A stretch of DNA of 50,104 bases, from positions 1 to 50,104 of IMG/VR virus record IMGVR_UViG_3300042549_001238. The stretch is one strand, 5' to 3'. The notes below the pieces were generated by a model that saw nothing but the letters and a program-made list of their open reading frames with translations, was not told the DNA's origin and did not search any database. Source of the DNA: a virus. The position numbers were made by a program, and so were the translations under genes. Shown here piece by piece: positions 3,563-15,223 of the stretch. The stretch's first letter is position 1. Each line of letters opens with the position of its first letter.

Positions 3563-6500
3563 TTAATGTTTATTATTTATCAATGACTTTAATTCTTCAA
3601 TTTGTTTTTGCTGCTCTTTGATTGCTTCGATTAATAATGGAACAAGTTTTTCGTAATTAACAGTCAGATAATTTTTACCTGACTTAGATGGGTTAGGATC
3701 TTTATCGCCATTTTTATCAAATGGTGCATGCTCTACAACTTCAGGTAATACTGCTTGAACTTCTTGAGCGATTACACCAACATCAATTCCAGTTGTAGGA
3801 TAAAAGTCCCACTTATTACATTCTTCAAGATCCCAATTAAACGTGACGCCATTAATAGACAATAGTTTTTGCAGCGCATTGTCAATATTTTTAATATTCT
3901 TTTTAATTCTAACATCTGAAGAATATGCAGTAATGTTTCCAGTAACACTTAATGCACCAGTTCTACTCAAAGATGCTCTTTGTGTTACTGTTGTTCCATT
4001 ATATGTACAAAATACTAGTATTCCATTGCTGCCTGTATCCGAATAATAAATGCTGTGCTCGTAAGCATTTCCAGCCATATCAGTACCAAGACCCATCCAC
4101 GCATTAGAATCAGCATCAAGACCATAAACTTGAAGACGCGGACCACCGAAAAATGCACCACTGATCATCATAGCTGGTAATGATGTTGACACTTTAGCAA
4201 CTTGAAATTTATAAGTTGATGTAGTTGTTCCAACACTTACATTACCACTATTATTAATGGTCATACAGTCAATGTAGCCTGATCCAGATTTAACTAAGAA
4301 TTTAAGATTACCATTAGCCCAAGCTCCTGTGGTTCCTGAAACTTTTTGCGAAACAATTGCAGCAGTTGCAACAGGATTTGCTGAACTTGACGTAGTTTCG
4401 TTTGCAGCAAATACAAGTTTAGCACCTGTATTATCTGTACCATTTTTATTATAAAGAACAACAGTAGCATCCATTTCAGTTGCAGCTGTAGAAGAACTGT
4501 CTTTTCTAAACATCGCAGCTGGACTGTGGAAATATGCTCCTGGATACATGTCATAAAAACTTGTACTGCTACTACCACCACCAATAATAAATGGACCACC
4601 ACCAGAATTGAACGTTCCATTTACTTGGGCTTGAAATGTTGGACTGCTTGTTGCAATACCAACTAATCCTCCACTTGTAATTCGCACACGTTCAGTGTCT
4701 GCTGATGTAAACACAACAGGAGCACTTGCAATACTTCCAAAATATGCTGCACTTGTTAGTGGAGAAGCAACAGAACCATTACCCCAACCAACATGAGCAG
4801 TAGCAGTTCCAGAATCATTTAAAAAGTGCATTCCACTATAACCACTAGCGGATGTGTTTTTAAATCGTGCAACAATTGCTGAAGACGCAGATGTTTCTAC
4901 ATCTAAACGAACTCCAGGGCTTGCTGTTCCAATGCCAACATTACCAGCACCATTAAGAACCATTAAATGGTCTGCAGCCCAATGTCCAAATGTTAATCGA
5001 TTACTGTCAGATCCTGGTGTTCCGCTATATGTGTATCCAATATATCCAGAATTTTTTGTTGAACCTTCTCGACCAATAACATTAAGCACTGTTTGATTTG
5101 TTGTTAAATTTGGAGCAAAACTTTCTTGAGCATGAACAAAGGTAGATGAAGAAGTTACATCTAATGCTAAACATGGATCATTGGCAGTTCCTGCACCATA
5201 AACATTTAATCTTGCAGCTGGAGAAGATGTTCCAATTCCAACATTGCCAGATGAATCAATTAAAACATTATTAGTACCGCCTCCGTTTACTCTGAACGCA
5301 ATACCTCTACTCGTTGCAGAACAAATATATAAACCATCTTCGCCAGTATTATGCGCAAAAATTCTATTTCCACCATTATTATTGCCACTAAATCCTAGCG
5401 TTGTATATCTACCAGTTCCAGAAGTTCCATAAGTTCCATCATCACCTAATGTTAAACTAGTTCCTACTGATGGTTTATAGGAAATTGTGCCAACAACTTC
5501 TAATTTTGTTGCAGGATTTGTTGTTCCGATACCAACAAAACCGCTATTTAAAATGGTCATTAAATCATTATTATCTTCTCTAAAATAGATATTTCCAGAA
5601 CCACGAGAATTTAAAAATGTATGACCGCCATTTTGCCACAATAAAACATAGTCATTGCCTGGTGTCCAGATAGCATTATATGCGCCATATGTTGGATGTT
5701 CTCCAATAGAAATATTTGTATCGGCGTCAACGTAAACATTTAATTTTCCAGTTGGACTTGTTGTTCCAAGACCTACAAGTCCACCTTCAGTGATTAAAAA
5801 TGGTGGTGTACCTTGTAATGTTTTATTTGTAATGGCAAAATTAGTGACACCAACACTATATGGATTAACACCAATAATCCATTGTCTGGTGTAAGTAGTA
5901 TCATTTCCAGGCGAACCTGTGCCACCAGCAGCAATTGCTATGGTGGATTCTCCATCGTTGGGGTTTGCAACTTGTAACTGAGCCCAACCAGAACTTGCAG
6001 ATCTAATTAGTAATTTATTTCCTTCTATATGAATTCTAGCAACACTGCTTGGTGATGTGGTGTTTATACCAATATTGCCTAGACTGTTTATAGTCATGGC
6101 GTCTACTCGCGATCCACCACTTTTAACAAAAAAGTTTAATGATCCATCAGTCCAATTACCACTTGTTCCTGCTATTTCTTTTTTCGCAATAATGCCAGCA
6201 AGATTTACTGAATTTCCTGCACCTGGAGAACTTTCAGCTGAAACGAATGCTAAACCAACTGTAGTTTGATCTGCACCACTGTTGTTATAAAGACCCAGCG
6301 CAGGTCTAAATCCATTTAATCCAGTTGTCGTGTTATCTGCTCTAAGCAATAGTGGAGGAGTATGATCGCTGGGACTTCTATATGTTGCGCCTTCCCATTG
6401 AAAAAATGATTGACCATTTATAGTTTGACCAATAACATAAGCAGGAACAGTGAGTCCAACTACAGTACCATTATCTGTTACAGTGCTGTTACCTAATGTT

Positions 6501-9088
6501 GTTGATCCTGTAAATTTCGCAAGATATCCAGAAGTTCCTCCTGGACTTACACCTGTTGCTCCTTGAACACCTTGTGCTCCCTGCACACCTTGATGACCCT
6601 GTGCTCCTTGAGCACCCTGTGCACCAACAGCACCTTGTGCACCTACAGCGCCCTGCGCTCCAACTGCTCCTTGTGCACCAACGGCACCTTGCACACCCTG
6701 TGCTCCTTGTGCTCCGACAGCACCTTGAGCACCTACCGCACCTTGTGCACCGACTGCTCCCTGAACTCCTTGGAATCCTTGTGCTCCTTGAGCACCCTGT
6801 GCACCAACAACACCTTGTGCTCCTTGAGCACCAGCATCACCTTGCGCACCTACAGATCCTTGTCGACCTTGAAAACCTTGCGCTCCTTGAAATCCTTGGT
6901 GTCCCTGTGATCCTTGAGCACCTACATCACCCTGAGCACCGATAACACCTTGATAACCTTGATTTCCTTGTGCTCCGACTACACCTTGATGCCCCTGAAA
7001 TCCTTGCGATCCTTGAGCACCTTGCGCGCCGACATCGCCTTGTGCTCCGACGTCACCTTGATGTCCCTGTGCACCTTGTACACCCTGGAATCCTTGAGCA
7101 CCCTGAACTCCTTGATGACCTTGAGAACCCTGCACTCCTTGCGCGCCTTGTACACCTTGTGCACCGACATCTCCTTGAAATCCTTGATGACCCTGCGAAC
7201 CTTGTCGACCTTGTGCTCCTTGAGCACCAGTATCACCTTTATCACCTGTTCTAGTAAAAGTGATGATCACATCTTCATTATTAGGGAATGTGCTTACTGT
7301 ATTTGATGTTGCAGTAATTGGAATGTGAAACCATCCAGGAGATGTATCTGTATGTTCATGATTTGCGCCAATAATATTGTAAAACACAAATTGTAGTATG
7401 TTCGCAGAATTTGCAATTTTCGCAACACCCTTAATAGATGATGTTGAATCATCTATAGTTTGCAAATAATTTACAATATTCGCTGAATCATTATCCAAAT
7501 AACTGATGGCGAGTGCAGTTGCATCAAACAAACTTGCGGTGTTTACTTTTAAATATCCACTCGTTGGATTTGAATGTGTTGTATCTGTTGAGAATAAGAA
7601 GTCAAACGTCGCGCCACCGAAAGATCCAGTTTCACCTTGTACACCTTGATAACCTTGTGATCCCTGTACACCCTGTGCACCTTGAATGCCTTGAGATCCT
7701 TGTGCACCTATTTCACCTTGAACTCCTTGGAATCCTTGTGCTCCTTGTCGACCTTGTGATCCTTGTACACCTTGCGATCCCTGCACGCCTTGAGAACCCT
7801 GAGCGCCTACTTCGCCTTGCACGCCTTGATGACCTTGCGATCCTACATCACCTTGTACACCCTGTGCTCCTTGCGCACCAATAGTGCCTTGCACTCCTTG
7901 AAATCCTTGCGAACCTTGTATACCTTGATGCCCCTGAGAACCTTGCGCACCGACAGCACCTTGATGACCTTGCGATCCTTGATGCCCTTCGGCACCTTGT
8001 ACACCTTGATAACCTTGTGAACCCTGAGCACCAACATCACCTTGTGCTCCTACATCTCCCTGTACACCTTGAGCACCTTGGAATCCTTGATAGCCTTGAG
8101 ATCCCTGCGCACCTTGAGCACCGACAGCACCTTGTACACCTTGATGACCCTGAGATCCTTGGAATCCTTGTGATCCCTGCACACCTTGAGCACCGACATC
8201 TCCTTGTACACCTTGTGCGCCTTGACGACCCTGAGATCCCTGGAATCCTTGATGACCTTGAGATCCTTGTGCACCCTGAACACCTTGTGCACCTTGTACA
8301 CCTTGATAACCTTGTTGACCGATACCAGCAGCTGCAGTTACAAAGTAACGCACATCAATTACATCACCAATCTCACCTGTATCGATAATTGTAATTTCAT
8401 TTGTATTCGCAAACGTGAAGTCTGTATTAGGTATAAGCGAAACACCATTTTTATATACAAACAAATGTTCAATAGCAGGTGCTGGTGTTGTCAGCGTGTA
8501 AACAAGATTTCCTGAGTTTGATGCTGCACTAAATGAATCTGAGCGAATTACAGTGTCGCTGATACCTTGCGCTCCTTGAGGTCCTGTGCTGCCTTGAACA
8601 CCCTGATAACCTTGCGCTCCTTGAGAACCTGCGATACCTTGAGCACCTTGAAATCCCTGCGCTCCCTGCACACCTTGTGCGCCAACGTTACCTTGAAATC
8701 CTTGAGATCCTTGAGCACCTTCAGTGCCTTGAGCGCCAACAGCACCTTGCGATCCTACTGCGCCTTGTACACCTTGATAACCTTGTGGACCTTGTGCTCC
8801 TGCTACACCTTGATAACCTTGAGCACCTTGCGGTCCGACAAGAGATGTGTTAGCAGTGAAAGAAATATTTGCCGATGTTCCGCTTTGAGTTACGGAAACA
8901 TTAATCGTGCTAGTATTGTTGAAATTTAAATTTGATTTGGAAACAACAAGAGAACCGTTTGCATAAACTGCAACAGTGTTCGCTGCGGCATTTGTAGTTT
9001 CCGCAGAGGCAACTCCTAGATTTGTACGAGCATCTGTGGCATTATTTGCCCCAGTTCCGCCCATAAAGACAGAAACTTTTTGTACCAT
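3563..9088 (-). CDS. Giant collagen-like tail fibre with C-terminal Peptidase_S74 chaperone
   Basis: The product is 1841 residues. Order: N-terminal attachment part (1-79), G-X-Q array (80-174), spacer, second array (258-488), beta spacer (489-614), third array (614-848), a long beta-rich head with many VGIGTTSP repeats (849-1722), and an S74 intramolecular chaperone (1723-1841). The S74 start S-S-D-V-R-I-K-K-N-I has the catalytic-type serine (Ser1724), and the domain ends in a Lys/Glu/Gln-rich coiled coil. In this family the domain helps the fibre trimerise and then cuts itself off. The gene follows the 9093 fibre by 4 bases and precedes its truncated paralogue by 12, so all are probably co-transcribed. 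Role: host recognition at the virion surface; receptor unknown. Confidence 0.88.
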   Translation of the reverse strand: MVQKVSVFMGGTGANNATDARTNLGVASAETTNAAANTVAVYANGSLVVSKSNLNFNNTSTINVSVTQSGTSANISFTANTSLVGPQGAQGYQGVAGAQGPQGYQGVQGAVGSQGAVGAQGTEGAQGSQGFQGNVGAQGVQGAQGFQGAQGIAGSQGAQGYQGVQGSTGPQGAQGISDTVIRSDSFSAASNSGNLVYTLTTPAPAIEHLFVYKNGVSLIPNTDFTFANTNEITIIDTGEIGDVIDVRYFVTAAAGIGQQGYQGVQGAQGVQGAQGSQGHQGFQGSQGRQGAQGVQGDVGAQGVQGSQGFQGSQGHQGVQGAVGAQGAQGSQGYQGFQGAQGVQGDVGAQGDVGAQGSQGYQGVQGAEGHQGSQGHQGAVGAQGSQGHQGIQGSQGFQGVQGTIGAQGAQGVQGDVGSQGHQGVQGEVGAQGSQGVQGSQGVQGSQGRQGAQGFQGVQGEIGAQGSQGIQGAQGVQGSQGYQGVQGETGSFGGATFDFLFSTDTTHSNPTSGYLKVNTASLFDATALAISYLDNDSANIVNYLQTIDDSTSSIKGVAKIANSANILQFVFYNIIGANHEHTDTSPGWFHIPITATSNTVSTFPNNEDVIITFTRTGDKGDTGAQGAQGRQGSQGHQGFQGDVGAQGVQGAQGVQGSQGHQGVQGAQGFQGVQGAQGHQGDVGAQGDVGAQGAQGSQGFQGHQGVVGAQGNQGYQGVIGAQGDVGAQGSQGHQGFQGAQGFQGRQGSVGAQGDAGAQGAQGVVGAQGAQGAQGFQGVQGAVGAQGAVGAQGAVGAQGAQGVQGAVGAQGAVGAQGAVGAQGAVGAQGAQGAQGHQGVQGAQGVQGATGVSPGGTSGYLAKFTGSTTLGNSTVTDNGTVVGLTVPAYVIGQTINGQSFFQWEGATYRSPSDHTPPLLLRADNTTTGLNGFRPALGLYNNSGADQTTVGLAFVSAESSPGAGNSVNLAGIIAKKEIAGTSGNWTDGSLNFFVKSGGSRVDAMTINSLGNIGINTTSPSSVARIHIEGNKLLIRSASSGWAQLQVANPNDGESTIAIAAGGTGSPGNDTTYTRQWIIGVNPYSVGVTNFAITNKTLQGTPPFLITEGGLVGLGTTSPTGKLNVYVDADTNISIGEHPTYGAYNAIWTPGNDYVLLWQNGGHTFLNSRGSGNIYFREDNNDLMTILNSGFVGIGTTNPATKLEVVGTISYKPSVGTSLTLGDDGTYGTSGTGRYTTLGFSGNNNGGNRIFAHNTGEDGLYICSATSRGIAFRVNGGGTNNVLIDSSGNVGIGTSSPAARLNVYGAGTANDPCLALDVTSSSTFVHAQESFAPNLTTNQTVLNVIGREGSTKNSGYIGYTYSGTPGSDSNRLTFGHWAADHLMVLNGAGNVGIGTASPGVRLDVETSASSAIVARFKNTSASGYSGMHFLNDSGTATAHVGWGNGSVASPLTSAAYFGSIASAPVVFTSADTERVRITSGGLVGIATSSPTFQAQVNGTFNSGGGPFIIGGGSSSTSFYDMYPGAYFHSPAAMFRKDSSSTAATEMDATVVLYNKNGTDNTGAKLVFAANETTSSSANPVATAAIVSQKVSGTTGAWANGNLKFLVKSGSGYIDCMTINNSGNVSVGTTTSTYKFQVAKVSTSLPAMMISGAFFGGPRLQVYGLDADSNAWMGLGTDMAGNAYEHSIYYSDTGSNGILVFCTYNGTTVTQRASLSRTGALSVTGNITAYSSDVRIKKNIKNIDNALQKLLSINGVTFNWDLEECNKWDFYPTTGIDVGVIAQEVQAVLPEVVEHAPFDKNGDKDPNPSKSGKNYLTVNYEKLVPLLIEAIKEQQKQIEELKSLINNKH
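6543..7245 (-). repeat. Collagen-like G-X-Q repeat array
   Basis: Third array of the S74 fibre, about 235 residues. It includes near-perfect GAVGAQGAVGAQ runs encoded by almost identical 18-base units around 6590-6780, a plausible site of slippage or unequal recombination. It ends at GATGVSPGGTSGYLAKF, the junction shared with the other fibre. Confidence 0.85.
7622..8314 (-). repeat. Collagen-like G-X-Q repeat array
   Basis: Second array of the S74 fibre, about 230 residues of G-X-Q, ending in GETGSFGGATF as in the paralogue. Variation at X is mostly A, V, F, Y, H, S, D and E. Confidence 0.85.
8566..8847 (-). repeat. Collagen-like G-X-Q repeat array
   Basis: First array of the S74 fibre, about 95 residues, opening GPQGAQGYQGVAGAQG after a beta-type N-terminal domain. 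Confidence 0.85.
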
Positions 9089-9092
9089 ATTC

Positions 9093-11564
9093 TTATCTTA
9101 ATGTTCTTGCTTCAATATTCAATCCGTTTGGAGGCATGAATGTGAGAGTCAATGTTGTACCAGAAACGGTGTAATCTTCAGTTGGTAGAATTGTCACACC
9201 ATCAATCGTAACAAGAATATTATTTACGCTTGATACAGATGACGAGAGTGTATAAGTGTTTGTGCTACCATTTGTTGTAAATCGAGAACTGACTGCATTG
9301 GTTGCTGCAAACGAAACATTCGCATTAGATCCAGCTCCAGTTACTGTAACTGCAATCGATGATGTGTTATTAAAGGATAATACATTCGCTGAAACAGTAG
9401 AACCAGAATTAGCAGTGACTCTTACAGCTGCATTGTTCGCAGCATTATACGCAAGATTGGCTTGATTGTATGCAGCTGAAACGTCTATAACAGTCGCAAC
9501 AGAATTTCCAGATAATAAAATGCTATTAGCATTAATATTAGCACGAAGTGTTGCTAGGTTTGTGTTAGCAAAATCAATAACATTTGATTGATGCCCTGCG
9601 TCTGGTAAATTGTCAAACAAGTACCAAGTGCCATCGGAAGCATCGCGAGCAAGACCAGTATGTGTTGTTTGCGGACCATTATTTTTTGCAGCAACAAATC
9701 CAAGATCAACTGTGTCGCTAATTGTATTATTTGAACCAAGATAAATTAACGCATCATCAACAACGAATGTTGCTACGTTGATGAAGGTTGTGTTACCAGA
9801 TAGATAAATGTTACCACTCGTAACATTCAAATCACCGCTAATATTAAGTGATCCGCTGAGCGAACCACCTGTTAAACTTAATTTAGAATTTGCTGCACTA
9901 TAAGCAGCATTTGCTTGCCCATATGCATTAGTAGCGATTAGATATAATCCATTCGCAATGTTCGCAGTTGCAGCAGCAGTTACGTTTCCTTGCGCAGTAT
10001 ATGTGTCGTTGACAATAACTTGCGGAGCAGCAGTAAACGAGATATTTGCATTCGTGCCATTTTGTTCTACAGTAACAGATACAGTTGCTGTATTATTAAA
10101 TGATAATGTATTCGCAGAGAACGATGCGCCTGAGTTTGCTGTTACTTTAACTGCTGCATTATTTGCAGCATCATAGGCTAGATTTGCTTGCGCATAGGCA
10201 TTATTCGCTTGAAGTCTGGCTGCATTCGCTTGACCATAAGCAGAAGTTGCAATGATGTAGCCAATTCCTGCAGTAACATTCGCAGTGTTTGCTTGATCAT
10301 AAGCATTTTGAGCAATCGATGTTGCTGTGTTCGCCTGACTATATGCATTGTTTGCTTGTGTATACGCTGCGTTTGCTTGATTATAAGCAGCATTTGCTTG
10401 AGCATAAATGGTTGCACTATTAGTTTCGATAACAATGTTACCGACCATTCCGCTATGCACTGTACACTGATAAACATATGCATTACCTTGTAGCGCATAA
10501 GGAATTTTCCAGTACAGTTTACCACTGACTTTACCTTGTGCGCTAGACCCAGTGCTTACAGTGCCATTTGTTGCAACGTGAGTTAATCCTGTGTCATAAT
10601 TTGCGCCGCCACTTGACACACGAATCGTAAATGGATGCCCTGCATTATTTAAATTAAACGCAATGGTTTCACCAGCGCGAACATATATTGCAGGATTATC
10701 TACTGTGCCGTACTGATCAAATCGATATGCTGTTGCGCCGTTATTCGTCACTGCCAATTCAGTTACAGCTGGCTGATAGTCTGAATTTGCTTGAGCATAT
10801 GCAGCGTTGGCTAACGAATATGCTAGGTTTGCTTGATTGAACGCACCATTAGCAGTTGTGTTTGCATTAATTGCAGTGTTGTTCGCATCAACAGCAATAT
10901 TGTATCCAGTGTTTGCTTGATTATATGCATCGCGCGCGATTTGAAAACTGTAAAAATTACCATTAACATCAGACCAACCCCAATTATCTGTGCTTTCGTC
11001 CCAGCGAAGAAACACATTGGTTGAGTTACCGCGATTAACAGTAATGCTAGCATTAAGAGTTGGTGTTCCAGTTAAACTGGAATTTAAAATAATTTCGTTG
11101 TCTTCAACGCTTAACGTTTCTACATTAAGTGTTGTTGTGTTGCCAGAGACAGTTAGATTGCCATCAATCGTCAAACTGCCTGTGATTGTGCCACCAGCAA
11201 TATTAAGTTTTAAATTAGCCTGATCGAATACTGAGTTTGCTTGAGCGTAAGCAAGATTCGCTATGTTATATGCAGATGTAGAAACGAGATATACAGCATT
11301 AACTGAGTTTGGTGTGGCTGCGCGTGTGACACTATTGGAAGTCACTGTGTCGTTTAGTTGAACAACACCAGCTTGATTCACATTTGCTGAATTGGCGGAA
11401 ATGGTACCAGTTAATGTAATCGGACCGCCAGTTAAACCGTTACCAGTGGCGAGGTTTGTAATGCCGCCATCGCCAGTTGTCGCGACTACACGATCACCAC
11501 GAACTTTGTTCGCACCAATTGTAGCAGCAGTAGTTGTATTACTTGTGGTAACTTTAATCTTCAT
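9093..11564 (-). CDS. Tail fibre protein with embedded cupredoxin (amicyanin-like) domain
   Basis: The product is 823 residues. It starts MKIKVTTSN with a beta-rich attachment region, then alanine-rich heptads of the type AY-QAN-A (for example AYNQANAAYTQANNAYSQAN), which suggest a trimeric coiled coil. Around 265-385 lies a globular insert with cupredoxin sequence: A-G-H-P-F-T-I-R (His310) and Y-Q-C-T-V-H-S-G-M-V-G (Cys367, His370, Met373). The spacing C-x2-H-x2-M is that of amicyanin. More coiled-coil and beta modules follow. The segment NTTTLNVETLSVEDNEIILNS is shared in type with the collagen-like fibres, showing module exchange. Probable virion fibre or its proximal part. Copper binding is predicted only from the residues. 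Confidence 0.8.
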   Translation of the reverse strand: MKIKVTTSNTTTAATIGANKVRGDRVVATTGDGGITNLATGNGLTGGPITLTGTISANSANVNQAGVVQLNDTVTSNSVTRAATPNSVNAVYLVSTSAYNIANLAYAQANSVFDQANLKLNIAGGTITGSLTIDGNLTVSGNTTTLNVETLSVEDNEIILNSSLTGTPTLNASITVNRGNSTNVFLRWDESTDNWGWSDVNGNFYSFQIARDAYNQANTGYNIAVDANNTAINANTTANGAFNQANLAYSLANAAYAQANSDYQPAVTELAVTNNGATAYRFDQYGTVDNPAIYVRAGETIAFNLNNAGHPFTIRVSSGGANYDTGLTHVATNGTVSTGSSAQGKVSGKLYWKIPYALQGNAYVYQCTVHSGMVGNIVIETNSATIYAQANAAYNQANAAYTQANNAYSQANTATSIAQNAYDQANTANVTAGIGYIIATSAYGQANAARLQANNAYAQANLAYDAANNAAVKVTANSGASFSANTLSFNNTATVSVTVEQNGTNANISFTAAPQVIVNDTYTAQGNVTAAATANIANGLYLIATNAYGQANAAYSAANSKLSLTGGSLSGSLNISGDLNVTSGNIYLSGNTTFINVATFVVDDALIYLGSNNTISDTVDLGFVAAKNNGPQTTHTGLARDASDGTWYLFDNLPDAGHQSNVIDFANTNLATLRANINANSILLSGNSVATVIDVSAAYNQANLAYNAANNAAVRVTANSGSTVSANVLSFNNTSSIAVTVTGAGSNANVSFAATNAVSSRFTTNGSTNTYTLSSSVSSVNNILVTIDGVTILPTEDYTVSGTTLTLTFMPPNGLNIEARTLR

Positions 11565-12080: not shown

Positions 12081-13031
12081 TTAGTCCGTTTTATCTGGGA
12101 TTACCCAATCGACTTCGATATTTGGTTTAATTGCGTTTGTCAAAGCACGTTTTTCAATCTTTCTGTTTATATAATCGACTCCAGAGTAGCGCCTAAACTC
12201 CTCAAAGACTACGTCGTCCACAGAATCAATGAACCGTCTAAATTCTAAATCTGATCTATATTTTCTTTCTTGTATAACTTCATCTGAGACTATAGGATTA
12301 TAGTCCTGTTTAGAAGTATGTTGATTAGATCCAATATAATGGTAACAATTAATCTGTTTACCGTGAAAGATTGAATAGCCAACCATAAACGAAGAAAGAA
12401 CCATAATTTGTTCTTCCCCATGAAAAAAGATTTTTGGATTTATCCCAACATTATTAATCCAATCTGCATGAGTGAACATGTTGCCTGCAAAAATATGGCT
12501 GGCTGGCATAACACTAGTAGTTGGATTGGTATGTTCGCCGTGAGCAAATAACGAAAGACTTTTATCAAATTGATAAAATTTGGCTATACAAGCAACATTT
12601 TTATTGTGCTCAAGTTTAACATGTCCTTCGACGAGATTGAAATTTTTACAATTAGATGATATGACTACTTTATTTGAGTTAGCAATTAAACAGCCCTCTT
12701 TGTAATCATTAATTAGTTGCCTATCCCAGTTGTTATCAAATACCATGTGAGAATCAATTTGATAATAAAAATCCTCATCAGTTAATTGTAAAGCATTAAT
12801 GTTTCTCGCCCACCCAACGCCCTCAGAATATTGTGGGTCAATTCTCTTATACTTTACATCAGGTCTTGATATTAATTCTGGATGCAGTGTTTCTAAACTA
12901 TTTTCTTTTTCTGTTTGTTCGAATATTCCATATACTACTTCAGCAAGCGAGGACTTACTTTGAATTAGAGATTTTAGTGTGTAAACTAACAGTGGATCTC
13001 TATATGAGCATATGCTTACAAATATTTTCAT
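12081..13031 (-). CDS. GT60-type GlcNAc transferase (glycosyltransferase, Skp1 GnT1-like)
   Basis: The product is 316 residues. The N-terminus MKIFVSICSYRDP is the typical first strand of the GlcNAc-transferase family (PF11397, CAZy GT60). G-V-G-W-A-R (71-76) and Y-Y-Q-I-D-S-H-M (89-96) follow, where D93-S-H95 is the DXD-like metal/UDP-sugar site. A later F-F-H-G-E-E motif is also typical. In Dictyostelium a GT60 enzyme adds GlcNAc to a hydroxyproline of Skp1. The start overlaps the stop of the upstream gene by 4 bases, so it is the last gene of the cassette begun by the 2OG oxygenase. The substrate could be a virion or host protein; donor and acceptor are inferred from family only. Confidence 0.75.
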   Translation of the reverse strand: MKIFVSICSYRDPLLVYTLKSLIQSKSSLAEVVYGIFEQTEKENSLETLHPELISRPDVKYKRIDPQYSEGVGWARNINALQLTDEDFYYQIDSHMVFDNNWDRQLINDYKEGCLIANSNKVVISSNCKNFNLVEGHVKLEHNKNVACIAKFYQFDKSLSLFAHGEHTNPTTSVMPASHIFAGNMFTHADWINNVGINPKIFFHGEEQIMVLSSFMVGYSIFHGKQINCYHYIGSNQHTSKQDYNPIVSDEVIQERKYRSDLEFRRFIDSVDDVVFEEFRRYSGVDYINRKIEKRALTNAIKPNIEVDWVIPDKTD

Positions 13032-13879
13032 TCTTTATCTTCTTTTGGTTGTTGATTAGGATCTTCTTCCACTCTATCTAATGTAAAACTTTTTTTAATA
13101 TTATGGTTTTTTCTATAAAATTGATTCTCATGTATTTTTGGATCATATGAGAGTATACTTTTTTGTTCGATATTAGGTGGACCGTATCCACACTCAATGT
13201 GTCTATTGTAAAACGGTATCACATGCAATAGGGGTTCCCCTGCTTTGATTGTATACTCACATTTTTTTCTTGGTGCTAAAATTGCATTCATAGTATGAAA
13301 TGTATTATAGTCAACTATGCCAGGATAAACATAAAAATTTTCAAGAAATTCTGGACTTGAATGATACCATGCAGGTAATATTAACGCTGAAATATCTTTA
13401 TCATAACTAAAGATTTTCCATGGAGAATTTATATTAAATGGTCGTAGAGGAATGCCATCTTGAATGTTAAAGATACCATCGACTATGTCACTAGCCATTG
13501 GAACAGGATCTCTAAATGGAGAACTTCGTTTACCACCCCCAGCATAGGCGATACAACCTGCTTTGTTTATTTTAAAATGAAAATCTGCCCAACACGGAAC
13601 AATATATCCTAATCTAGAATAATCAAACATCCCAGGGCATAGTGGAAATGTAAATTTATTTCCTAGGTCCTCAACATGTTTTCTAGAATTGACTGGAACA
13701 TCTTTTGCTAATTTGATTGGCAAACTGGCAAATACCAACTCAGAAGAATCAATAAATTCTAGTTTATTTTTTTGCAAAGGAGATTGAATTACTGTTGAGT
13801 TAGAAACTTCTATTTCTTCTTCAACTGAAGTTGATTCATAAAGAGGTTTTTTAGATTTAAAAATATTAAAAAGATTCAT
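13028..13879 (-). CDS. DUF6065-like protein of unknown function (copy B)
   Basis: The product is 283 residues. The first ~80 are Ser/Glu/Lys-rich and probably disordered. The rest aligns by eye with the neighbouring 246-residue protein: L-G-Y-I-V-P-C-W-A-D-F-H matches L-G-Y-V-I-P-L-C-G-D-L-H, and Y-P-G-I-V-D-Y ... A-G-E-P-L-L-H-V-I-P-F matches L-S-G-L-V-D-T-D ... A-G-T-P-L-V-T-A-I-P-I. The pattern (aromatic strand, GIV-D, AG-PL-P) resembles DUF6065 as I recall it. It overlaps both neighbours by 4 bases, so it is translationally coupled in the hydroxylase/glycosyltransferase cassette. No catalytic role can be assigned. Confidence 0.6.
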   Translation of the reverse strand: MNLFNIFKSKKPLYESTSVEEEIEVSNSTVIQSPLQKNKLEFIDSSELVFASLPIKLAKDVPVNSRKHVEDLGNKFTFPLCPGMFDYSRLGYIVPCWADFHFKINKAGCIAYAGGGKRSSPFRDPVPMASDIVDGIFNIQDGIPLRPFNINSPWKIFSYDKDISALILPAWYHSSPEFLENFYVYPGIVDYNTFHTMNAILAPRKKCEYTIKAGEPLLHVIPFYNRHIECGYGPPNIEQKSILSYDPKIHENQFYRKNHNIKKSFTLDRVEEDPNQQPKEDKE

Positions 13880-14616
13880 TTCTTAACTCTCAATTCATTT
13901 GTATAAACATGCATTCTACTGTGTTGTTGCTTTTTAATTGTTTCAATAGTGTTAAAATCGTCATCCGTCATTTTTCTAATTTTTGGTTTTTTATCAAATG
14001 TATTACGTTTAATTGGAATAGCAGTTACTAGTGGTGTTCCTGCAGAAATAATACCATCAAAACCAGGCTTATTCCAGATTGCAGGAAAATTAACTTCTTT
14101 TGGATATTTGTCTGTATCTACCAGCCCACTTAAACAAGTAAATGGTTGATCAATATGATTCATTGGTGGCACAAACAATGTTGACCAACCAGGAGCAGTT
14201 TTAACGATCCAATGATTCACAAACTTAATCGGATGTAATGGAAATCTTGGCGCATTTTCACCCCCTAATTGATCTACTGAATGAAATTCAGCAAGTTTTA
14301 AACCAGGTGGATTGTGAGTTTTAATTTCCGTCATATCAGGATCAACTTGAACATGAAGATCACCGCACAATGGGATTACATATCCTAGGGACATTGCATC
14401 AATCAACGGCAAACATTTTTTTGCACTCATTGAAGGAACATTGAACATAGTATCCCTTTTATCTGGGAGAGTTGGTGGCAAAATTCTAAACCATTCTGGT
14501 AGATATTTTATTGCTGGTTTAGGTTCTGGAATCACACCACTTAAATCTGGATGGCAATAAAACTCAATGACATCGTTACCCCAAAATTTAAATATATTGC
14601 GCAATGTATTCAACAT
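13876..14616 (-). CDS. DUF6065-like protein of unknown function (copy A)
   Basis: The product is 246 residues with an IEFYCHPDLSG start region, then L-G-Y-V-I-P-L-C-G-D-L-H near residue 78, T-A-P-G-W-S-T-L-F-V-P-P and G-I-I-S-A-G-T-P-L-V-T. These match my memory of DUF6065 (APGWS-L, PP-N, G-V-TD, G-P--P). It is the tandem paralogue of the next gene. Its ATG overlaps the end of the 2OG oxygenase gene by 7 bases and its stop overlaps the next start by 4. The context suggests a part in the same modification of a protein, but the function is unknown. Confidence 0.65.
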   Translation of the reverse strand: MLNTLRNIFKFWGNDVIEFYCHPDLSGVIPEPKPAIKYLPEWFRILPPTLPDKRDTMFNVPSMSAKKCLPLIDAMSLGYVIPLCGDLHVQVDPDMTEIKTHNPPGLKLAEFHSVDQLGGENAPRFPLHPIKFVNHWIVKTAPGWSTLFVPPMNHIDQPFTCLSGLVDTDKYPKEVNFPAIWNKPGFDGIISAGTPLVTAIPIKRNTFDKKPKIRKMTDDDFNTIETIKKQQHSRMHVYTNELRVKK

Positions 14617-15200
14617 GATCGCTTACCCATAATCCAAGTAACTAATGATTTACGGACACCAGACTTCACTGGCACCACTCTGTGTGGCATCCAAGAAGCA
14701 AAAAATACAACGGATCCGATTGGTGGCTTTAGAGATATTGGTTTTTCAATGTTACCATCAGTAACTATTTCGAATTCACCACCACCATATTTTGATGGGT
14801 CAGATAACAAAATTATTGCGCTCATTTTGCGTTCATAATTTTGATACTCAGTAAAGCAATCAAAATGCCAATTATAATGTTGTTTTGCTTTATATTTTGT
14901 GTATTGAAAGGCATCAAATCCATCGATATCATACATAAAATTAGCATGATTCACTTGAGCCATCAACCAACTGAATTTATCAAACAACCATTTTGACTCT
15001 GGTGATGGAATAAGCCAGGATATTTCGCTGTCTCGATAATCCTTGTTGATTTTTCCACCATTATCTACACCAAGTTTTCCTTCTGAGAAAGTTTGTAGTT
15101 CTTCTAAGTCGATGATCTTTTCGATTTCTTCTGGTGTGAAGTAACTTTCGTTGATTGAAAATTGTGGTAATGGGCGAATATATTTTACAAATGTGGGCAT
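14610..15200 (-). CDS. 2OG-Fe(II) oxygenase, prolyl-hydroxylase (PKHD) type
   Basis: The product is 196 residues from the ATG at 15200. I prefer this to a TTG at 15212 because TTGGAG lies six bases before the ATG. It has the facial triad H112-x-D114 (N-W-H-F-D-C-F) and H173 (W-M-P-H-R), with R183 ten residues later (G-V-R-K-S-L) to bind 2-oxoglutarate, as in the PKHD/prolyl 4-hydroxylase fold. The GGGEFEIV strand is also typical. Such enzymes hydroxylate protein side chains using O2 and 2-oxoglutarate. They are common in marine T4-like phages but their substrates are unknown. It is first in a four-gene cassette ending in a GlcNAc transferase and lies just after a Pro-rich repeat protein gene, its possible substrate. 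Confidence 0.85.
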   Translation of the reverse strand: MPTFVKYIRPLPQFSINESYFTPEEIEKIIDLEELQTFSEGKLGVDNGGKINKDYRDSEISWLIPSPESKWLFDKFSWLMAQVNHANFMYDIDGFDAFQYTKYKAKQHYNWHFDCFTEYQNYERKMSAIILLSDPSKYGGGEFEIVTDGNIEKPISLKPPIGSVVFFASWMPHRVVPVKSGVRKSLVTWIMGKRSC

Positions 15201-15223
15201 AACAAACTCCAATTTTAAATCAT

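Follow-up and report, generated by a model that had tools for sequence, protein, structure and literature searches.

A predicted cupredoxin domain carrying a candidate type-1 copper site lies between the stalk segments of a phage tail fibre

The window, by which we mean the whole 50,104-nucleotide stretch of viral DNA analysed (IMG/VR record IMGVR_UViG_3300042549_001238), carries an 823-aa tail-fibre open reading frame within a T4-like baseplate and tail gene cluster (Table 1). The protein matched the tail-fibre repeat family Phage_fiber_2 above the Pfam cut-off (E = 7.8e-6) and PHROG 677 over profile positions 167–409 of 412 (E = 3.4e-18). It contains a single cysteine, C367, with five histidines and three methionines. 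The nearest relatives of the gp6 protein of this phage are those of Pelagibacter phage HTVC008M and of Methylophilales phages (∼40%), so the host need not be photosynthetic.

A further fibre, of 1841 aa, with collagen repeats and ending in an S74 chaperone, is encoded at 3563–9088 on the minus strand. Near it lie genes for a 2OG-Fe(II) oxygenase (PF13640) and a PF11397 (GlcNAc) glycosyltransferase, at 12081–13031 and 14610–15212 (both minus strand); PF11397 includes the Skp1 hydroxyproline GlcNAc transferase. Possibly, this phage hydroxylates and glycosylates its own collagen-like fibre. The adjacent genes at 13028–13879 and 13876–14616 (minus strand) both matched PHROG 7084, of unknown function, and the second also matched DUF6065.

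Table 1. Features of the 823-aa fibre, with positions in the window, and ligand-poor domains of related fibres.
Feature	Residues	Window position	Strand	Basis
Tail-fibre ORF	1–823	9093..11564	−	Phage_fiber_2 and PHROG 677 matches
Ala-rich heptad (AYxQANx) stalk before domain	205–261	10782..10952	−	Predicted single long helix
Cupredoxin domain (predicted)	262–381	10420..10781	−	AF2 model; Foldseek and VIA matches
Ala-rich heptad stalk after domain	382–440	10245..10419	−	Predicted single long helix
First candidate copper ligand, in G-H-P-F	H310	10635..10637	−	F+7 spacing; conservation
Candidate thiolate ligand, sole fibre Cys	C367	10464..10466	−	Gapless alignment to amicyanin Cys ligand
Second candidate His ligand	H370	10455..10457	−	Alignment and conservation
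Candidate axial Met ligand	M373	10446..10448	−	Alignment and conservation
Ligand-less or ligand-poor domain, L006	972–1089
Ligand-less or ligand-poor domain, L044	426–532
Ligand-less or ligand-poor domains, L096	185–306 and 497–606
Ligand-poor domain, L329	254–369
Ligand-poor domain, L155 (S-B43)

A first-pass annotation of the window had proposed an amicyanin-like cupredoxin domain inside the fibre, at 10420–10770, and had called for structure prediction. The placement within the fibre stood; the end did not, since the domain extends to about 10781. AlphaFold2 (AF2), given 34 relatives as input, modelled the domain as a cupredoxin-like beta-sandwich of some ten short strands, with a mean pLDDT of 93.5 and a pTM of 0.87. 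The top Foldseek matches in the PDB were amicyanin (E = 5e-5), rusticyanin, Cu nitrite reductase, multicopper oxidase and plastocyanin. On re-alignment with VIA, the best Z-scores were obtained with the type-1 domains of Cu nitrite reductases and multicopper oxidases (Z 9–10.6, mostly at ∼2–3.5 Å), and rusticyanin gave a Z of 9.4; rmsd values were larger by Foldseek than by VIA, probably owing to long loops. Among predicted viral structures, matches were found to cyanophage gp9-like connectors, tail fibres, other tail proteins and proteins labelled as peptidase S8, together with beta-sandwich and blue copper proteins of giant viruses. The model thus places in the fibre a Greek-key beta-sandwich of which nearly all matches are blue copper proteins or related to them. 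The presence of a cupredoxin fold in residues 262–381 is, on these predictions, nearly certain.

Sequence profiles gave a weaker match to the known copper proteins. Pfam Copper-bind matched the fibre domain at E = 0.0011–0.0015 (19.3–19.8 bits), below the cut-off of 21.2; matches at E ≤ 0.01 were obtained in 21 of 34 relatives, the best at 1.1e-5. A PF00127 search of the virus record returned no match, as expected of a domain below threshold. It is for this reason that the domain goes unlabelled; in the phage records, its carriers are named connectors, tail fibres or hypothetical proteins. The domain alone matched PHROG 677, the gp9-like ‘baseplate wedge tail fiber protein connector’ of cyanophages, at E = 7.6e-27. 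The PHROG proteins have the same domain with the same ligands, but there it is C-terminal in a protein of roughly 410–500 aa, whereas in the window it is in the middle of a stalked fibre.

The domain is bounded on both sides by AYxQANx heptads, in the window fibre and in its close relatives; the flanks vary while the domain is constant. An AF2 model of residues 205–440, of moderate confidence (mean pLDDT 71.5), consisted of a long helix (model residues 2–58), the sandwich and a second long helix (179–235). The domain is therefore best described as a cupredoxin bead inserted between two heptad stalk segments, the insertion being read from the sequence and the fold and helices from prediction.

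The four residues named as type-1 copper ligands in the first-pass annotation were found in the fibre translation at exactly the positions claimed, and the C-x2-H-x2-M spacing of amicyanin was upheld by gapless alignment to the amicyanin loop. The loop also aligned gaplessly to a nitrite reductase, in its C-terminal domain, and the same C-x2-H-x2-M is present in the C-terminal cupredoxin domain of 9cck. In the AF2 model, C367 ends the penultimate strand, H370 and M373 lie in the loop that follows, and H310 immediately precedes a central strand, as in cupredoxins; this predicted arrangement is that of the superfamily, in which the first ligand His stands before the fourth strand and Cys, His and Met are in the last loop. 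The bare C-x2-H-x2-M pattern occurred five times in a six-frame translation of the window (about 100,000 codons) and is not significant alone. A chance motif is nevertheless ruled out by the fold, the conservation described below and the single-Cys status of the domain.

The assignment of H310 needs a further argument. In the plastocyanin profile alignment it falls two residues ahead of the plastocyanin ligand His, and it is followed by Pro instead of the Asn or Ser of typical blue proteins. Despite this shift in register, H310 is likely to be the equivalent of the first ligand His, because it lies at the same distance past the preceding strand Phe (F+7) as the His of the pseudoazurin G-H-N-V and because His-Pro-Phe has a precedent in laccases. 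Laccase type-1 sites have His-Pro-Phe, and multicopper oxidases have His-Pro at the type-1 His, so a Pro at this place is compatible with copper. From spacing, loop position and conservation, we infer that the four residues together make up a type-1-like copper site, in the position that is canonical for this fold. Copper is probably its natural metal.

The likeness to amicyanin stops short of family membership. The NCBIfam models, amicyanin (TIGR02657) among them, gave no fibre match at E ≤ 1. Amicyanin shares the cupredoxin fold, but it has Pro-His-Asn at the first ligand where the fibre domain has Gly-His-Pro-Phe. It is a free periplasmic protein, exported as a partner of methylamine dehydrogenase, whereas the fibre domain is part of a larger virion protein in a T4-like tail cluster. 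Because of the His-Pro in place of His-Asn and the lack of a family-model match, the fibre domain is to be classed as amicyanin-like, in a subfamily different from that of amicyanin itself. Plastocyanin, a weak profile match, has a ligand loop two residues longer, and identity with pseudoazurin and plastocyanin is about 14–22%. Unlike multicopper oxidases and Cu nitrite reductases, the fibre has a single cupredoxin domain, without type-2 or type-3 copper ligands or an enzyme partner.

Conservation of the ligands in homologous phages had been proposed as a check. Loci were gathered from viral contigs with peptide patterns lying outside the C-x2-H-x2-M loop; in one scan, the first His was contained in one of six patterns. 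Loci from the scan with profile A2, whose pattern contained the ligands, were excluded from the counts. In the viral-contig scans, 113 of 118 distinct domains kept C-x2-H-x2-M together with the His-Pro site. Among representatives at 90% identity, isolates included, all four ligands were kept in 97 of 102; the corresponding figures were 31 of 36 after clustering at 70%, where pairs were on average 33% identical, and 14 of 19 at 50%. In the 90% and 70% sets, the ligand columns ranked 4th to 9th of ∼115, amid structural Gly, Pro and aromatic columns. Exactly one Cys was present in 112 of the 113 intact domains, and Cys density was 7.6 per 1000 residues in the domain as against 0.68 elsewhere in the fibres, an approximately eleven-fold difference. 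Among close relatives, dN/dS was 0.05–0.10. The ligands are thus kept in most homologues, and their loss, which was to have counted against the proposal, was largely not seen. Very probably, the ligand set is selected as a metal site.

At least five copies nonetheless keep the fold, judging by sequence, with most or all ligands gone (Table 1). Essentially the entire site is lost in L006, L044 and both L096 copies, three of the four ligands are lost in S-B43, and the lost copies within the 70% clustered set each lack at least three. The first set had suggested that ligands are lost strictly all together or not at all; this rule was broken by L329, which lacks the Cys and one His, and by a cellular domain (L247) that lacks the first His only. 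Since ligand-poor copies keep the fold, the site is not essential for the module, and we conclude that the candidate site is under selection yet dispensable to the module. The ligand-poor fibre domains offer natural controls for the function of the site.

A metal-binding or redox fold in a fibre had been thought unusual. This was not borne out: the genomes of aquatic phages that have the module number in the hundreds, and most of them have it in gp9-like connectors of cyanophages. Relatives were found in 322 to 365 of 50,697 phage records and in at least several hundred IMG/VR contigs; of the 365 records, about 350 are from cyanophages. The carriers looked at among the phage records were mostly Kyanoviridae but included the podovirus P-GSP1; a partial match was found in a Pelagibacter phage. 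The usual place of the module in these records is the C-terminus of a gp9-like baseplate/fibre connector; other tail proteins also end in it, and in stalked fibres it is internal. The module is most likely mobile. A C-terminal cupredoxin domain was also seen in proteins of Synechococcus phages S-H9-1, ACG-2014e and ACG-2014j (L157, L160 and L165); the S-H9-1 carrier has the annotation subtilisin-like serine protease, and a peptidase S8 label was seen on predicted-structure matches of related proteins.

Recent acquisition from a cellular genome gained no support from a scan with the close profile, which found no cellular relative, and a plasmid search gave no match. With a wider profile, the same His-Pro and C-x2-H-x2-M were found in apparent secreted lipoproteins of haloarchaea and in signal-peptide proteins of actinobacteria, as well as in apparent phage contigs within metagenome-assembled genomes. 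The haloarchaeal proteins L254, L256–L258 and L260–L262 carry a His-Pro cupredoxin domain, single or paired; the N-terminus of several is of the lipoprotein type, and one of them scored above the Pfam cut-off for the plant At5g54830-like domain.

Blue copper proteins, a plastocyanin borne by phages and metal sites in the T4 fibre are already known. In the T4 gp37 fibre tip, iron sites formed by His-x-His within a trimeric beta-structure use metal ions as structural staples. A metal in a T4-like tail fibre is what we propose for the cupredoxin domain also, although the gp37 site is not a cupredoxin copper site. In the open-access papers searched, no description was found of a cupredoxin with intact type-1 ligands in a phage virion protein. 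A phage-encoded blue copper protein, the plastocyanin PetE, is carried by cyanophages (PMC3037559). PetE, at about 110 aa, carries electrons as a free protein, whereas the fibre domain is a piece of a virion protein. Proteomes are available for S-SM1, S-PM2 and Syn9 (PMC3037559).

We favour, at about an even chance for the explanation as a whole, a copper-binding bead set between stalks as a stapled structural or adhesion module. The candidate site would bind a single copper ion outside the cell or once the cell has lysed, rather than earlier, since the cytosol, in which the fibre is synthesized, has little free copper. Copper would then staple the C-terminal loop and the sandwich, and the stapled bead would present a rigid surface for fibre joining or for weak contact with the host surface. 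The metal-stapled structural or adhesion role taken by itself falls slightly short of even. The Pro after the first His and the Pfam score just below the cut-off count against the favoured explanation. The ligand-poor copies do so too, implying that the domain can work without the site. They are also what one would expect if the cupredoxin had been recruited for its fold only, with His, Cys and Met persisting through packing or inertia and the fibre working in the apo form. Assembly in a copper-poor cytosol agrees with such a purely structural sandwich, as does the frequency of decorative Ig-like domains in phage fibres. Against it, ∼95% of the distinct copies retain all four ligands, even where identity falls to roughly 30%; the same is argued by the near absence of Cys elsewhere in these fibres and by the joint rather than single loss of ligands in the clustered set (L329, with two lost, and the cellular L247, with one, being the exceptions). 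We consider this structure-only reading unlikely.

Readings that give the metal a different part to play are less probable still. A copper or redox switch, in which fibre conformation or receptor engagement would change with the Cu(I)/Cu(II) state or when the site is loaded after lysis, would make use of the intact redox-type ligand set, of an extended, exposed fibre with the domain between two stalks and, in gp9-like proteins, of a C-terminal position in the annotated baseplate–fibre connector. Cupredoxin folds are rigid, however, and change little with redox state, and ligand-less copies persist; the switch is possible but unsupported, and we rate it as improbable. We give no better prospect to a site for another soft metal (zinc, silver or mercury) or for copper scavenging in place of a native copper function. 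Cupredoxin sites do accept other soft metals, and with Pro behind its first His the fibre site is unlike typical blue copper sites, but Cys, two His and Met in a cupredoxin fold are the copper set of the characterized families, and the Pro has its counterpart in multicopper oxidases. An electron-transfer role is unlikely because the fibre has no evident partner.

The bead, a cupredoxin with a single cysteine set on a coiled-coil stalk, is a neat natural module, and virions bearing it may carry copper. It is a tentative and rather doubtful further step that many ocean and freshwater T4-like phages have, on their fibres or connectors, type-1 copper centres that are filled extracellularly and serve as an attachment element dependent on copper or redox state; if true, this would be a metalloprotein function undescribed for phage virions in the open-access literature searched. 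If copper is bound, some of the most abundant phages of the sea would have metalloprotein tails, and the finding would bear on seawater copper chemistry, on virion maturation after lysis and on fibre design.
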